A DNA stretch of 64,000 nt, from assembly GCF_017068455.1 (NCBI RefSeq), contig NZ_CP070608.1, positions 2,399,488-2,463,487 of the forward strand, in the 5' to 3' direction. The position numbers and the translations under genes are program-made. Shown here piece after piece: positions 48,338-58,651 of the stretch. The notes under the pieces are model-generated. The model was not told where the DNA came from. It ran no database searches and saw only the letters and a program-made list of their open reading frames with translations. Every line of letters begins with the position of its first letter. Within the stretch, counting starts at the first letter, position 1. Source of the DNA: Fulvivirga lutea (GTDB lineage Bacteria > Bacteroidota > Bacteroidia > Cytophagales > Cyclobacteriaceae).

Positions 48338-50410
48338 ATGATTATGAAATTAACAAAAAACAACCTCGCTTGGCTTGCTTCCGGCATGATTTTACTATCG
48401 GCCTGCTCTGAGCCCAAGGAGGAAAAGACAGCCGAAGATGTTCAGGCGCTAAATATGGCTAATTTGGATTCTACAGTGAATCCTGGCGATGACTTTTTCC
48501 AATTCGCCAATGGCGGCTGGTTAAAAACTACTGAAATACCTGGTGACAGAGGCAGTTGGAGTTCTTTTGGCGAACTACGTGAAAACACAAACGAAGTGGT
48601 ATTGGAGGTACTTAATAGTGCTGCTGAAAGCGATAAGTATGCCAAAGGAACAGACCAGCGTAAAGCAGCAGATTTTTACTCTATTGGTATGGACTCACTA
48701 CTTGCTGAGAAAGCTGGTATACAACCTTTGAAGCCTCATCTGGAAATGATAGCCGCAATTAATGATGTGCAAAGTCTTCAAAAGTACTTGTCGGAACAAG
48801 AAACTTATGGTGGCGGAGCATTCTTCGGTTTTGGTGTATTTGCTGATTTGAAGAATAGCACAATGAATGCTGCATATCTTGGTCAGGGTGGTCTTGGTCT
48901 TCCGGACAGAGATTATTACACCAAAACAGATTCTCGATCCAAAGAAATCAGAGAAAAATATGTAAAACATGTTTCAAGAATGCTTCAATTAATGGGCGAT
49001 ACCCCCGAGTCGGCAGATGCGCAGGCTAAAAGAATTATGGCATTAGAAACCAGGTTAGCAGAAGCTTCTATGACGAATGTTGAGCAGAGAAATATACCTG
49101 CGCTTTACAACAAAATGTCGTTAAACCAGCTAGGGGAAATTGTGCCATCGGTAGATTGGAAAATGTATTTCGCAGATATGGGTGTTAACAAGATCGATAC
49201 AATTATTGTAACTCAACCGGAGTTCATGAAAGAATTTGAAGCCATAGTAAAAGATGGTAAAGTGGATGTATGGAAAGAATACTTAAAATGGAAACTCATT
49301 GATGGTGCTTCTGCATATTTAAGCAATGATTATGTACAAGCTAATTTCGAATTTTTCAGTAAAGAATTGAGAGGTGTAGAAGAAATGAGGCCTCGCTGGA
49401 AGAGAGTTTTGAGCACAACCAATAACTCTTTAGGAGAAGCAATTGGTAAACTTTATGTAGATGAGGTATTTCCTCCTGAAGCAAAACAAAAGGCTCAGGA
49501 AATGGTGGAAAACATTAAGCTGGCATACGCAGAGAGAATCAAAAATTTGGATTGGATGACTGATTCTACCAAAACTAAAGCATTAGAAAAGCTTAAAAAG
49601 ATGGTGGTTAAAATTGGTTATCCTGATGAGTGGAGAAGTTATGCTGAATTGGAAGTAAATGGTGATCCTGAAACTTCATCTTACGTTCAGAATTTAATGA
49701 ATGCTGCTAAGTTTGGATTTGAATACAATACTTCAAAACTAGGTGAGCCTGTAGATAAAAAAGAGTGGGGAATGAGTCCTCAGACTGTGAATGCTTATTT
49801 CAACCCGTTAAATAATGAAATTGTATTCCCGGCAGCTATTTTACAACCGCCATTCTATAATTATAAAGCAGATGCTGCTGTAAATTATGGTGGTATTGGT
49901 GCTGTCATTGGCCATGAAATTTCTCATTGTTTTGATGATCAGGGGAGTAGGTTTGATGCTGATGGTAACTTGAAAAACTGGTGGACAGATGTAGATTTGA
50001 AGAATTTTCAGGCAAGAACTGGTCAGTTGGTTGCACAGTACGATGCCTATGAGCCATTGGATAGTGTGAATGTAAATGGAGAATTTACATTGGGTGAAAA
50101 TATTGGTGACTTAGGGGGTATAAGTGCTGCCTATGACGGATTGCAGAGACACCTTGCCGCCAATGGTGATCCAGGTAAAATAGATGGTTTTACTCCTGAG
50201 CAAAGATTCTTTTTATCATGGGCGACTGTTTGGAGAGTGAAATACAAAGATGAGTCTTTAAGAACACAGATTCTTACTGATCCACATTCACCGGGAATGT
50301 ATAGAGCCAATGGCCCAATCTCGAACATGGAGGAGTTTTTTACTGCTTTTAATGTGAAGGAAGGCGATGCCATGTATAAACCAGACAGCACAAGGGTGAA
50401 GATTTGGTAA
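48338..50410 (+). CDS. M13 family metallopeptidase lipoprotein (neprilysin/PepO-like)
   Basis: 690 residues. The N-terminus has a lipoprotein signal ending LLSACSEP (lipidation Cys about residue 23). The zinc motif HEISH is at 526-530 in GAVIGHEISHCFDDQGS. The third ligand and partner Asp are in ENIGDLGG (Glu587, Asp591). The substrate-binding NAYFNPLNNEIVFPAAILQP upstream and the C-terminal VKIW are family-typical. Full M13 length. It cleaves oligopeptides in the periplasm or at the outer membrane (family knowledge). The start could also be the second ATG at 48344. Confidence 0.95.
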   Translation: MIMKLTKNNLAWLASGMILLSACSEPKEEKTAEDVQALNMANLDSTVNPGDDFFQFANGGWLKTTEIPGDRGSWSSFGELRENTNEVVLEVLNSAAESDKYAKGTDQRKAADFYSIGMDSLLAEKAGIQPLKPHLEMIAAINDVQSLQKYLSEQETYGGGAFFGFGVFADLKNSTMNAAYLGQGGLGLPDRDYYTKTDSRSKEIREKYVKHVSRMLQLMGDTPESADAQAKRIMALETRLAEASMTNVEQRNIPALYNKMSLNQLGEIVPSVDWKMYFADMGVNKIDTIIVTQPEFMKEFEAIVKDGKVDVWKEYLKWKLIDGASAYLSNDYVQANFEFFSKELRGVEEMRPRWKRVLSTTNNSLGEAIGKLYVDEVFPPEAKQKAQEMVENIKLAYAERIKNLDWMTDSTKTKALEKLKKMVVKIGYPDEWRSYAELEVNGDPETSSYVQNLMNAAKFGFEYNTSKLGEPVDKKEWGMSPQTVNAYFNPLNNEIVFPAAILQPPFYNYKADAAVNYGGIGAVIGHEISHCFDDQGSRFDADGNLKNWWTDVDLKNFQARTGQLVAQYDAYEPLDSVNVNGEFTLGENIGDLGGISAAYDGLQRHLAANGDPGKIDGFTPEQRFFLSWATVWRVKYKDESLRTQILTDPHSPGMYRANGPISNMEEFFTAFNVKEGDAMYKPDSTRVKIW

Positions 50411-50431
50411 TTAGTAATTCAACTAATTGTG

Positions 50432-50462
50432 AAACCTCTGGATATTTATTCAGAGGTTTTTT
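50432..50462 (+). terminator. Intrinsic terminator after the M13 peptidase gene
   Basis: A perfect 9-bp stem AAACCTCTG/CAGAGGTTT with a 10-nt loop is followed by more T residues, 21 bp after the stop codon. Confidence 0.85.
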
Positions 50463-50495
50463 AATTTAAGTGGTTCAATAGAAAAAATAAATATT

Positions 50496-50699
50496 ATGGG
50501 AAAAGGAGATAAAAAGACGAAAAAGGGTAAAATATCGATGGGGTCTTATGGTGTTACTCGACAGAGATCGAAAAACAAGAAGTCTGTAAATCGCCCAGCA
50601 GAGGCAAAGCCTAAAGCAGAGAAAAAGGCCGAACCTAAAAAAGCAGCTGCAACTAAAAAACCTGCAGCTAAAAAAGCCGCGACTAAAAAGAAGGAATAG
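50496..50699 (+). CDS. 30S ribosomal protein bTHX with Lys/Ala-rich tail
   Basis: 67 residues. The first part, MGKGDKKTKKGKISMGSYG with TRQRSKNK, matches the THX family, which sits in the 30S head. The remaining half is a low-complexity Ala/Lys/Pro tail (AKPKAEKKAEPKKAAATKK). It is similar in composition to histone-H1-like tails and could contact rRNA or DNA. The gene has its own space between two terminated units. Confidence 0.88.
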   Translation: MGKGDKKTKKGKISMGSYGVTRQRSKNKKSVNRPAEAKPKAEKKAEPKKAAATKKPAAKKAATKKKE

Positions 50700-50770
50700 T
50701 CTAAAAAAGTAGAATGAAAAAGAAATTGTAAAATTTTCTAGGAATCATTTTTTTATTTGAAAACCAAATC

Positions 50771-50778
50771 TATATTTG
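50771..50778 (+). promoter_or_regulatory. Candidate -7 element of the trp operon
   Basis: TATATTTG matches TAnnTTTG. If used, transcription would begin only a few bases before the first leader-peptide ATG at 50786, giving an almost leaderless trpL. No good TTG lies at the -33 position, so this call is tentative. Confidence 0.5.
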
Positions 50779-50785
50779 AGAATCA

Positions 50786-50833
50786 ATGAAGAAAAATTTT
50801 ACATATAACGCTTGGTGGTACTTTTCTAAATAG
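50786..50833 (+). CDS. trpL: trp leader peptide 1 (tandem Trp-Trp)
   Basis: A 15-residue peptide, MKKNFTYNAWWYFSK, with adjacent Trp codons at 50813-50818 and a TAG stop just before an antiterminator strand. Its position ahead of an intrinsic terminator and the trp operon is that of a ribosome-mediated attenuator leader. The Trp codons lie inside the predicted 1:2 pause hairpin. Confidence 0.85.
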   Translation: MKKNFTYNAWWYFSK

Positions 50834-50890
50834 AAAGGGAACAGCGTTATTGTATAAAAACATAAAACAAAACTTAAAGCTCGCTGTTCC
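50807..50890 (+). promoter_or_regulatory. trp attenuator 1: pause hairpin and antiterminator
   Basis: The 1:2 structure pairs AACGCT (50807-50812) with AGCGTT (50843-50848), and inside it CTTTTCT (50821-50827) with AGAAAGG (50832-50838). The antiterminator pairs GGAACAGCG (50838-50846) with CGCTGTTCC (50882-50890), nine perfect pairs, and uses the 5' half of terminator 1. A ribosome stalled at the Trp codons would break 1:2 and free this strand, giving the classical four-segment logic. Confidence 0.82.
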
Positions 50891-50907
50891 AACAGTGAGC
50901 TTTTTTT
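50876..50907 (+). terminator. Attenuator terminator 1 of the trp operon
   Basis: AAAGCTCGCTGTT pairs with AACAGTGAGCTTT (12 Watson-Crick pairs and one G-U), with a minimal loop, followed by seven T residues (50901-50907). Confidence 0.92.
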
Positions 50908-50919
50908 ATGACTAAAAAT

Positions 50920-50973
50920 ATGAACAAGACATTTAACAACTGGTGGTGGTATTTTAAAATCAATGGGGATTGA
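50920..50973 (+). CDS. trpL: trp leader peptide 2 (Trp-Trp-Trp)
   Basis: A 17-residue peptide, MNKTFNNWWWYFKINGD, with three adjacent Trp codons at 50941-50949 and a TGA stop. An in-frame ATG at 50908 would add four residues. It resembles leader peptide 1 in layout (basic start, Asn, Trp run, Tyr/Phe, Lys), which suggests the two units arose by duplication. Confidence 0.85.
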   Translation: MNKTFNNWWWYFKINGD

Positions 50974-51012
50974 ACGCAAGAAGTATGTCTAAAAGATAAA
51001 GGCCTTGTGTTC
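50960..51012 (+). promoter_or_regulatory. trp attenuator 2: antiterminator pairing
   Basis: GAACGCAAG (50972-50980) pairs with CTTGTGTTC (51004-51012), nine pairs including one G-U, and takes the 5' half of terminator 2. The competing early hairpin is TCAAT/ATTGA around a GGGG loop (50960-50973), at the end of leader peptide 2. It is weaker than in attenuator 1, so the pause hairpin is less certain. Confidence 0.7.
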
Positions 51013-51031
51013 ACTCACAAGGCCTTTTTTT
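50998..51031 (+). terminator. Attenuator terminator 2 of the trp operon
   Basis: A perfect 12-bp stem AAAGGCCTTGTG/CACAAGGCCTTT with a 6-nt loop and a T run to 51031. It lies only 18 bp before the trpE ATG, so any transcript into trpE must read through it. Confidence 0.95.
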
Positions 51032-51049
51032 ATTCCTATGAACTGAAAA

Positions 51050-52447
51050 ATGAAAATAAAATTAAATACCATACATAAAAAACTACTTGCTGATACACTA
51101 ACACCGGTTAGTATCTATCTGCGACTTAGAGATAAATATGCCGACAGCATTCTACTTGAAAGCTCAGACTATCACGGCAATGAAAATAGCTTCTCTTACA
51201 TCTGTTGTGAGCCACTTGCTGAGATAAAAGCAAAAGGAAAAATGCTCCACCAGCAACTTCCAGGCAATACAGAACAGATAAAATCTATTGAGGAGGGTCA
51301 ACTGGTAACCGAACTTGAGTCATTTAAGAATTCATTTCAGGTAGCCGACAATAATTTCAAATTCAGCACGAATGGCCTTTTCGGTTATATGGCTTACAAT
51401 GTCATTCAGCACTTCGAAGACCTGGATTTAAAAAATGAGAATAGCGAAATACCTGATTTACTCTACAGGGTCTATCGATTTGTCATTGTTGTAGATCACT
51501 TCAAAAATGAGATGTATGTGTTCGAACATACTACTGAAGGTCAGGAGAATAAGATAGAAGAATTGGTTTCATTGATCAACAGACATGCTGATCCGCAATT
51601 CGAATTCAAGATTCAGGGAGAAGAGTCGTCAGTTTATAATGACGAGCAGTTTTTAGAAATACTTCAAAAAGGAGTTGACCACTGCCATAGAGGCGATGTG
51701 TTTCAAATAGTCTTATCAAGGAGATTTATGTCCACCTTCCAAGGCGATGAGTTTAATGTGTATCGTGCCCTAAGATCCATTAATCCATCGCCTTATTTAT
51801 TCTATTTCGATTATGGAAGCTTCAAGTTATTTGGCTCTAGCCCTGAATCACAAATTCTGATCAAAGGCGACAGAGCATCGATATTTCCAATAGCAGGTAC
51901 ATTCAGAAGAACAGGAGATGATGCTGCTGATGCAGAATTAGCGAAGAAATTATCAGAAGATGAAAAGGAAAATGCTGAGCACATCATGCTTGTTGACCTA
52001 GCTAGAAATGATTTGAGTAGAAGCTCGAAGAATGTAAATGTTGAGGTTTACAAGGAGGTGCAATACTACTCGCATGTAATACACCTGGTATCAAAAGTAA
52101 CAGGACAGTTAAACGGACATGGTTCTTCGTTGCAATTAGTAGCCGACACCTTTCCGGCAGGCACGCTTTCAGGAGCACCAAAGTACAAAGCCATGGAGCT
52201 GATTGATCAATATGAGCAGACTAGTAGAAACTACTATGCTGGTGCCATTGGCTTTATGGGTTTCAATGGAGATTATAATCATGCTATTATGATTAGGTCA
52301 TTTTTAAGTAAAAATAACCAATTGCACTATCAGGCAGGAGCCGGGGTTGTGGCCAAATCCAGCCCTGAGAGTGAGTTGAAAGAAGTTGATAACAAACTGG
52401 CAGCATTGCGCAATGCCATTAAACTAGCGGAGGAGATAAACAGATGA
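51050..52447 (+). CDS. trpE: Anthranilate synthase component I
   Basis: 465 residues. The feedback-site motif LLESSDYHGNE is near the N-terminus, where tryptophan binds. The chorismate-binding core has PIAGTFRRTGDD, DEKENAEHIMLVDLARNDL and the box GTLSGAPKYKAMELID. It converts chorismate and ammonia from TrpG to anthranilate. The stop overlaps trpG by four bases (ATGA). It is controlled by the two upstream attenuators and, by the LLES motif, probably by allosteric feedback as well. Confidence 0.97.
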   Translation: MKIKLNTIHKKLLADTLTPVSIYLRLRDKYADSILLESSDYHGNENSFSYICCEPLAEIKAKGKMLHQQLPGNTEQIKSIEEGQLVTELESFKNSFQVADNNFKFSTNGLFGYMAYNVIQHFEDLDLKNENSEIPDLLYRVYRFVIVVDHFKNEMYVFEHTTEGQENKIEELVSLINRHADPQFEFKIQGEESSVYNDEQFLEILQKGVDHCHRGDVFQIVLSRRFMSTFQGDEFNVYRALRSINPSPYLFYFDYGSFKLFGSSPESQILIKGDRASIFPIAGTFRRTGDDAADAELAKKLSEDEKENAEHIMLVDLARNDLSRSSKNVNVEVYKEVQYYSHVIHLVSKVTGQLNGHGSSLQLVADTFPAGTLSGAPKYKAMELIDQYEQTSRNYYAGAIGFMGFNGDYNHAIMIRSFLSKNNQLHYQAGAGVVAKSSPESELKEVDNKLAALRNAIKLAEEINR

Positions 52448-56817: not shown

Positions 56818-57615
56818 ATGAACAGAATAAATAAACTATTTAAGGATAAAGGAAAGGACATCTTATCAGTGTATTACACTGCCGGATTTCCTAATCTCAA
56901 CGATACGATAACTGTGGCACAAAGCCTCCAACAATCAGGTGCTGATATGTTGGAAATAGGCATCCCATTTTCCGACCCTATTGCTGATGGGCCTACCATC
57001 CAAGCGAGTAATAATCAGGCTTTGAAGAATGGTATGACTCTATCAAAGTTGTTTGAGCAGCTACAAGATTTGAGAAAGTCAGTTACTATTCCAGTGATCT
57101 TGATGGGGTATATTAATCCTATCCTTCAATACGGTATAGAAGATTTCTGTAAGGCTTGTGAGCAGGTAGGAGTTGATGGCTTAATCTTACCTGATTTACC
57201 GATGATCGAATACCAAACCAAGTATAAAGCACTCTTCGAGCAACATGGATTACGAAATGTATTTCTGATATCTCCTCAGACTTCAGAAAGCAGAATCAAA
57301 GAAATTGACCAGCAAACTGATGCCTTTATTTACATGGTATCCACTTCTGGCACCACAGGTGCAAGAGATAAATTCAGCGATGAAGCGGTAAACTATTTCG
57401 AAAGAATTGGAAATATGAACTTGACAAATCCTAGACTTATTGGCTTTGGAATATCAAATCATATCACATTCGAACAAGCCTGTAAATCAGCAAGTGGAGC
57501 GATAATCGGAAGTGCTTTTATTAAGACCTTAGAGAAATCTCATGACTTGAAAACAGATATTAATGAGTTTTTGAAAACAATTAAAAAGGAAGGAATTCCA
57601 GCGTCTAACTACTAA
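56818..57615 (+). CDS. trpA: Tryptophan synthase alpha chain
   Basis: 265 residues. Catalytic Glu46 and Asp57 lie in LEIGIPFSDPIADGP. Further motifs are PVILMGYINPI, GLILPDLP, LISPQTSESR, YMVSTSGTTGAR and GFGISNH. It cleaves indoleglycerol phosphate to indole, which is channelled to TrpB. It sits behind the repeat-filled gap, so it may need its own ribosome loading. Confidence 0.97.
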   Translation: MNRINKLFKDKGKDILSVYYTAGFPNLNDTITVAQSLQQSGADMLEIGIPFSDPIADGPTIQASNNQALKNGMTLSKLFEQLQDLRKSVTIPVILMGYINPILQYGIEDFCKACEQVGVDGLILPDLPMIEYQTKYKALFEQHGLRNVFLISPQTSESRIKEIDQQTDAFIYMVSTSGTTGARDKFSDEAVNYFERIGNMNLTNPRLIGFGISNHITFEQACKSASGAIIGSAFIKTLEKSHDLKTDINEFLKTIKKEGIPASNY

Positions 57616-57640: not shown

Positions 57641-58651
57641 ATGATCATACAACTAGAACCAAACATAAAACAAGATTTAAGAGATCGAATTATAACCAAG
57701 ATTAATGGCCTCAAATACAAGACTACTGAAGTGGCTACCCAAAAAGGGGAGTATATTGTAGGCATAGGTAAAAAGGATTTTGATATACGTGATATTGGCC
57801 ATATGCCAGGTATATCGGATGTTCATATAGTTTCAGACGACTACAAGCTTGTTTCTAAGAAGTGGAAGGTAAAACCTACTGTTATTGATTTAGGAGATGG
57901 AGTAGTTATTGAAGAAGGAGGGATGGCAATCATGGCAGGCCCTTGTTCCATAGAAGGAGAGGAGCAAATTGAGAAGACTATTCAGCATTTGTTGGATAAC
58001 AATGTGAAGATCATGCGTGGTGGTGTTTATAAGCCAAGAAGCTCTCCGTACTCATTCCGTGGTTTGGGGATTGATGGTTTAAAGGTTTGGTATGATGCTG
58101 CTAGAAAAGCAGGCATTAAAATCATTACGGAGGTTATGCAGGTAAGTCAGATAGAGGAGATGCATGATTATATAGATATCTTCCAGGTGGGTGCGAGAAA
58201 CACGCAAAACTTCAATTTGTTGGATGAACTGGGAAAGGTTCATAAACCTGTTTTGATAAAAAGAGGTATTTCTGGAACAATCGATGAATTACTTTCATCA
58301 GCTGAATATGTCTTTTCGGCAGGTAATGAGAATTTAATGCTATGCGAACGTGGAATAAGAACCTATGAGAAAGCAAGTAGAAATACCATGGACATTAATG
58401 CCATAACCATACTTAAAGAAAAGTCTCATTTACCAGTAATAGCCGATCCTTCACATGGCATTGGCATCAGAGATCATGTAGAGCCTGTTGCATTGGCTTG
58501 CATTATGGCCGGTGCTGATGGAGTAATTTACGAAACTCATGAAAAACCAGAGGAAGCTTATTCGGATGGTCAGCAAACCTTGAATTTCAGAGAATCGGAA
58601 AAGCTAATTAATAAGATGAGAAAGGTGTTTGAGTTGAGGGAGGAGATGTAA
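57641..58651 (+). CDS. aroF: 3-deoxy-7-phosphoheptulonate (DAHP) synthase, type I-beta
   Basis: 336 residues. An N-terminal ferredoxin-like regulatory domain (about 1-68) is followed by a TIM barrel. Motifs are MAGPCSIEGEEQIE (metal Cys), GGVYKPRSSPYSFRGLG, LIKRGISGTIDE, and the metal site ADPSHGIGIRDHVEP. It condenses PEP and erythrose 4-phosphate, the entry step to aromatic amino acids. Its location as the last trp-operon gene, 25 bp after trpA, puts it under the tryptophan attenuators. Its last 129 bp recur as a remnant at 59942. Confidence 0.95.
   Translation: MIIQLEPNIKQDLRDRIITKINGLKYKTTEVATQKGEYIVGIGKKDFDIRDIGHMPGISDVHIVSDDYKLVSKKWKVKPTVIDLGDGVVIEEGGMAIMAGPCSIEGEEQIEKTIQHLLDNNVKIMRGGVYKPRSSPYSFRGLGIDGLKVWYDAARKAGIKIITEVMQVSQIEEMHDYIDIFQVGARNTQNFNLLDELGKVHKPVLIKRGISGTIDELLSSAEYVFSAGNENLMLCERGIRTYEKASRNTMDINAITILKEKSHLPVIADPSHGIGIRDHVEPVALACIMAGADGVIYETHEKPEEAYSDGQQTLNFRESEKLINKMRKVFELREEM

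Follow-up and report, generated by a model that had tools for sequence, protein, structure and literature searches.

The window, by which we mean the whole 64-kb stretch of DNA analysed here (G000:C1:2399488-2463487), is part of a 4.14 Mb genome that forms a single contig. It carries a trp operon with the gene order trpE-G-D-C-F-B-A, which ends at position 57615. The best matches of trpE and trpF are their own families, yet their scores stay under the curated cut-offs. Upstream lies the gene for the small ribosomal protein bTHX (50496-50699), an assignment made by the sequence-only reading of this DNA and borne out by a TIGR04560 match of 49.1 bits against a cut-off of 26. A DAHP synthase gene (57641-58651) follows directly after trpA, and because it adjoins the operon, the first step of the shikimate pathway may share the trp attenuators. 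Between bTHX and trpE (ATG at 51050) lie two attenuator modules on the + strand, here called att1 and att2. Their elements are collected in table 1.

Table 1. Elements of the trp leader in the window, from the candidate promoter to the first gene of the operon.
Feature	Position	Strand	Sequence or detail	Basis
Candidate -7 promoter box, Bacteroidota type (TAnnTTTG)	50771..50778	+	TATATTTG	motif match; published placement (PMC9723704)
Putative leader peptide 1	50786..50833	+	MKKNFTYNAWWYFSK; ATG 50786, TAG 50833	ORF
att1 strand 1	50805..50811	+	pairs with 50844-50850	pairing; genus alignment
Trp codons of leader 1	50813..50818	+	two codons	sequence
att1 strand 2	50838..50846	+	GGAACAGCG; 5' side of the antiterminator, 3' of the leader 1 stop codon	pairing, folding
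Predicted terminator 1 with T-run	50876..50907	+	stem 50876-50903, 12 pairs	terminator scan
att1 strand 3	50882..50890	+	CGCTGTTCC; within terminator 1 (5' arm and loop)	pairing
Putative leader peptide 2	50920..50973	+	MNKTFNNWWWYFKINGD; ATG 50920, TGA 50973	ORF
Trp codons of leader 2	50941..50949	+	three codons	sequence
att2 strand 2	50972..50980	+	GAACGCAAG; overlaps the leader 2 stop codon	pairing, folding
Predicted terminator 2 with T-run	50998..51031	+	stem 50998-51027, 12 pairs	terminator scan
att2 strand 3	51004..51012	+	CTTGTGTTC; within terminator 2	pairing
trpE	51050..52447	+	first gene of the operon	ORF, family match

The sequence-only reading had described two complete attenuators in series ahead of the operon, and this description is confirmed: leader ORFs, alternative pairings and terminators are all present twice, on the same strand. 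In att1, strand 2 is the exact complement of strand 3; in att2, the two strands pair with one G-U. The strand 2 and strand 3 sequences of the two modules are unlike each other. Leader 2 has a second possible in-frame ATG at 50908. The spacing of 18 nt claimed between terminator 2 and trpE also stands for the end of the T-run, the stem ending 22 nt before the ATG. Reinitiation from a leader peptide near a gene start, of the kind described in PMC4833913, was set aside: a terminator and 76 nt separate the leader 2 stop codon from trpE.

The same reading had proposed folding with constrained ribosome positions as a check. A footprint of 30 nt was used for the ribosome, and the expected number of strand 2:3 pairs was computed at the stage before strand 4 is made. 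In this calculation both modules behave as classical switches, distinguishing a ribosome on the Trp codons, which allows the antiterminator, from one on the stop codon, which blocks it. With the ribosome on either Trp codon of leader 1, 8.9 pairs are expected in att1; on the Trp codons of leader 2, the value for att2 is 9.5-9.8. On the stop codon it falls to 0.0 in both. Strand 2:3 also forms without a ribosome (7.6 expected pairs in att1, 9.6 in att2), so the calculation tells 'on Trp' from 'on stop', not a stalled ribosome from an untranslated leader. When strand 4 is present, the terminator is favoured in every ribosome state in both modules; operation of the switch thus depends on timing. 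Such dependence is generally accepted for ribosome-mediated attenuators. The antiterminator of att1 has a strand 2:3 energy of -16.8, against a mean of -6.3 for shuffled strand 2 (z -5.9), and that of att2 one of -14.9 against -8.6 (z -2.6). The strand 1:2 helix is clear in att1 (z -4.3). In the window's att2 it does not stand out from shuffles (z -1.0); the equivalent helices of genomes G001, G014, G009 and G002 reach -16 to -24 kcal/mol.

Chance is a poor source of such modules. A detector was used that requires a short ORF with Trp-Trp followed by an intrinsic terminator within about 100 nt; the leader start is set at the in-frame ATG nearest the Trp run, and true starts may lie further upstream. 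Applied to both strands of the 64-kb window, it returns att1 and att2 and no others. Not one of 5000 dinucleotide shuffles of 50700-51049 contains even a single module, and 1.79 million strand-bases of other sequence yield 2 modules. The signal is also visible without the detector: in 309 regions from 450 to 40 nt upstream of trpE, exact copies removed, TGGTGG starts 561 times and its reverse complement 9 times, three Trp codons running being counted twice.

The arrangement recurs among relatives. A total of 336 trpE upstream regions was assembled, of which 5 were too short and 45 were copies, leaving 286 to be examined. The detector found one module in 224 leaders, two in 28 and none in 34; the last may have leaders that lack adjacent TGG codons. 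On reading, two loci were removed from the tandem class (L271 and L274, affected by an upstream gene end and by a 5S rRNA-like stretch with a terminator), and two from the Rufibacter genus (L196 and L234), in which an interrupted T-run had left one module flagged, were added. The net result is tandem attenuators in 28 of 286 non-identical trpE leaders, which is not a frequency because the sample leans to the window's family and to genera with tandems. Both putative leaders of the window, like both leaders of all 28 tandem loci, are short ORFs with adjacent Trp codons upstream of trp genes. In the Rufibacter genus all 15 genomes in which trpE was found have the tandem (16 genomes in the sample). 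The remaining six tandem genomes represent five genera: G082 and G142 share one, and G102, G039, G107 and G051 have one each, that of G102 being sampled by a single genome. No tandem occurs among the titled records with enough upstream sequence from outside Cytophagales (17 Flavobacteriales, 6 Sphingobacteriales and 1 Chitinophagales).

The window's own genus is divided. Related genomes in which the second peptide is not conserved had been named in advance as evidence against two working attenuators, and the outcome is mixed: att2 is kept in 7 of the 14 testable genomes and absent from 7, which have a single attenuator (the contig of the fifteenth ends within trpE). In every one of the seven att2 modules of the genus (L001, L002, L005, L007, L008, L009 and L012), strand 2 and the terminator are separated by a stretch that includes an invariant TATG element. 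The division lends some weight to a rival explanation, namely that regulation rests with one attenuator, its partner being a leftover or else a terminator that is weak, passive and in the course of being lost. The Rufibacter genus adds to it, as the terminator 1 stem there is followed by a T-run that is short and interrupted. Against this, both modules retain a Trp run and a terminator in 7 of 7 tandem genomes of the window's genus and in 15 of 15 Rufibacter-genus genomes with trpE, and both modules of the window fold as switches.

Conservation of the pairings bears on the same question. In the alignment of the window's genus, 98.2% of cells are paired for att1 strand 2:3 (14 genomes), and the six pairs of att2 strand 2:3 are paired throughout (100%, 7 genomes); slid controls give 17 to 69%. 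For att1 strand 1:2, 96.9% of cells are paired in 14 genomes; here 287 of 500 shuffles score as high, so the helix does not rise above the control. Covariation in related genomes had been suggested as a check. One att2 pair is A-U in 3 genomes, G-C in 3 and G-U in 1 of the 7; the three G-C rows form one clade, so the change may be a single event. Within the genus, covariation is weak at most: of 500 shuffles, 43 score as high for att1 and 59 for att2, and these shuffle controls are themselves weak because the helices hardly vary. In the att2 of the Rufibacter genus (13 loci), 88.5% of 14 pairs are kept, with no covariation above shuffles.

A further comparison exchanged strand 3 between lineages, a module passing when its own pairing outdoes 95% or more of the swaps; L196 and L234 were left out. 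The window passes with both modules. Passes number 6 of 26 for tandem att1, 12 of 26 for tandem att2 and 21 of 242 for single modules. Outside the Rufibacter genus, failure is clear for att1 of G102, G039 and G107, where 0.87 to 0.93 of swaps are as good, and the result is unremarkable for att1 of G008, G011 and G051, for both modules of G082 and for att2 of G142. The outcome is mixed across lineages: the antiterminator has good support in the window and in most att2 modules, and in several att1 modules it is a candidate. The upstream modules of L193, L244 and L245 have a leader, a Trp run and a terminator without convincing strand 2:3 pairing; they may switch differently or be passive. Unconvincing strand 2:3 pairing in att1 of G102, G039 and G107 and in att2 of G082 counts in favour of a single working regulator. 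Weighed against the conserved Trp runs and terminators and the folding of the window's modules described above, the reading in which only one attenuator regulates seems unlikely to us.

The numbers of Trp codons suggested another function. The sequence-only reading had proposed that different counts set two thresholds, so that one attenuator would open under mild starvation and the other when it is severe. The window has two Trp codons and then three, and all five unequal cases among the tandem leaders, the window included, run in that order (5 of 28). The idea does not hold generally: the longest runs are equal in the other 23 of the 28 tandem leaders (2/2 in 13, 3/3 in 10), and we consider two thresholds very improbable as the explanation of the tandem.

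Of the 28 tandem leaders, 27 have a TAnnTTTG box in the 60 nt that precede leader 1. One of the 28 has it between the leader 1 stop and the leader 2 start, where it lies inside att1 and upstream of terminator 1; control stretches contain it in 8 of 220 cases. Mapping in Flavobacterium psychrophilum, as reported in PMC9723704, places this -7 box at -12 to -5. By that published placement the window's transcript would start at about 50783, 3 nt before the leader 1 ATG. In a rival arrangement there would be two alternative promoters, one per attenuator, and part of the transcripts would contain the second attenuator alone. In its favour is a sigma-70-type match at 50933-50960, inside leader 2; such sites are no commoner than in shuffles, and the type is unexpected in the phylum. 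A second promoter between the attenuators is unsupported by the distribution of the box, and this arrangement seems to us scarcely credible.

Among 250 leaders with a module, 167 carry the box in the 60 nt ahead of the ATG closest to the Trp run; in 95 of those 167 it lies 4-10 nt before that ATG, compared with 126 of 2943 for all ATGs in the same regions. The trp leader peptides of the group thus often stand almost at the predicted mRNA 5' end (50771-50786 in the window, and equivalents). Leaderless mRNAs are put at 5.5% in F. psychrophilum in the account of PMC9723704, mRNAs with a 5' UTR under 10 nt are given as about 3.7% in Bacteroides thetaiotaomicron, and mRNAs with almost no 5' UTR are described as rare in the phylum. 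Leader 2 cannot start near the mRNA 5' end, so the two peptides probably differ in how their translation is initiated.

The history of the tandem was followed on a FastTree phylogeny of TrpE with 176 rows, 27 of them tandem. On this tree the tandem state requires 7 changes, of which starred branches force 3; the number is uncertain because several tandem rows sit on long branches. In the window's genus, the tandem genomes fall into two clades, of 3 and of 4 genomes, with single-attenuator genomes between them; the data do not reject a single origin in the genus (AU p 0.079). On inspection by eye, upstream modules of the tandems resemble the single module of relatives (14 rows align well), and the downstream modules differ between the two clades. 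This pattern points to att2 as the later arrival, placed between att1 and trpE. Judged from these alignments, the insertion perhaps occurred twice in the genus. Neither the repressor TrpR (PF01371) nor TRAP (PF02081) was detected in the genus, in searches of 15 genomes, both tandem and single, whose controls matched. Absence of a repressor may favour tight attenuation; it leaves the single module in half of the genus unexplained.

Upstream transcription was considered as a further cause. The terminator scan of the window finds no + strand terminator in 50699-50771, between bTHX and the trp promoter box, so that the trp attenuators may be where bTHX transcripts end. A tandem serving as a shield against read-through from bTHX was discarded as a general cause: in 15 of 15 Rufibacter-genus loci the closest large ORF upstream lies on the opposite strand, in a survey of 22 tandem and 110 other loci with flanks long enough. 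The survey's counts of bTHX itself were set aside, since its pattern seems to overlook reading frames that resemble bTHX, for instance at L009.

The explanation that we regard as likely is a 'double lock': two ribosome-mediated attenuators for the same signal, in series behind one promoter. The proposed mechanism is as follows. (i) A single promoter just upstream of leader 1 would give one transcript containing both attenuators, each sensing charged tRNA-Trp. (ii) When Trp is plentiful, a ribosome at each stop codon would cover strand 2, each terminator would form, and RNA polymerase would face two stops. (iii) When charged tRNA-Trp is short, ribosomes would stall on the Trp codons, strand 2:3 would pair, and both terminators would be bypassed. 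(iv) Output would then approximate the product of two read-through probabilities, as in an AND gate. That read-through multiplies had already been proposed from the DNA alone, and it is a reasonable expectation. As an illustration rather than a measurement, a leak of 10% per closed switch would become 1% for the pair. Compared with one attenuator, such a device would reduce basal expression and make the response wider and steeper, in a genus without detected TrpR or TRAP. The tandem probably closes the trp pathway more tightly than a single switch, the usual arrangement, would. A broader proposal is put forward tentatively, with less than even confidence. It holds that serial doubling of a same-signal ribosome-mediated attenuator recurs in Cytophagales, arose more than once and squares the termination ratio without a Trp repressor, and that a near-leaderless first peptide and an internally initiated second one sense Trp-tRNA by different modes of initiation.

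Attenuation by amino acids is taught as a one-switch mechanism. The classical trp attenuator, of the E. coli trpL type, consists of a short ORF with adjacent Trp codons, alternative 2:3 and 3:4 pairings and an intrinsic terminator before trpE. The window shares the Trp-codon ORF, the alternative pairings and the terminator between leader ORF and first gene; it differs in having two copies in series and in the predicted 5' UTR of leader 1, which is almost absent. The Rfam family RF00513 (Trp_leader) scores 31.1 bits over att1, under its gathering score of 41, and has no match over att2. A GibS match over att2 was taken as chance (31.4 bits against 115). T-boxes bind tRNA directly; none of their families is among the Rfam matches to 50300-51500 with an E-value of at most 1. 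For F. psychrophilum, PMC9723704 gives hints of leader-peptide attenuation before amino-acid operons.

Several known systems share part of this design. The macrolide-sensing mefA/msrD operon has two leader-peptide attenuators for one signal, presented in PMC10314930 as a 'double-lock' against basal expression; in that account mefA lies between the attenuators and the second controls msrD only, whereas in the window a single 5' leader holds both attenuators, which would control the same set of genes. In Salmonella mgtCBR, two leader ORFs in one leader mRNA each belong to an attenuator; the description in PMC3641672, which also covers the E. coli trp attenuator, has them respond additively to two signals (ATP and proline), through stem-loops unlike intrinsic terminators. 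The rimP-leader of several Gammaproteobacteria has two terminators one behind the other, and for the upstream terminator an antiterminator is possible; as characterized in PMC2965389 it has no leader peptide, and NusA is proposed as the probable regulator. A search of the open full-text literature, with subscription papers outside its scope, found no earlier report of two amino-acid leader-peptide attenuators for the same signal in one leader. A genus with one- and two-switch close relatives offers a ready test of whether a second switch brings lower leak, a steeper response or nothing. The nearest parallel is in Bacillota, where trp operons can carry two or three tandem T-boxes that sense tRNA-Trp and are expected to respond in a digital, pseudo-cooperative manner (PMC12452182). 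Both designs place serial tRNA-Trp switches ahead of trp genes; in the window, a translating ribosome would sense the charged tRNA, and phylum and RNA are different. The trp leader described here would thus be a leader-peptide counterpart to tandem T-boxes, built from an unrelated RNA.
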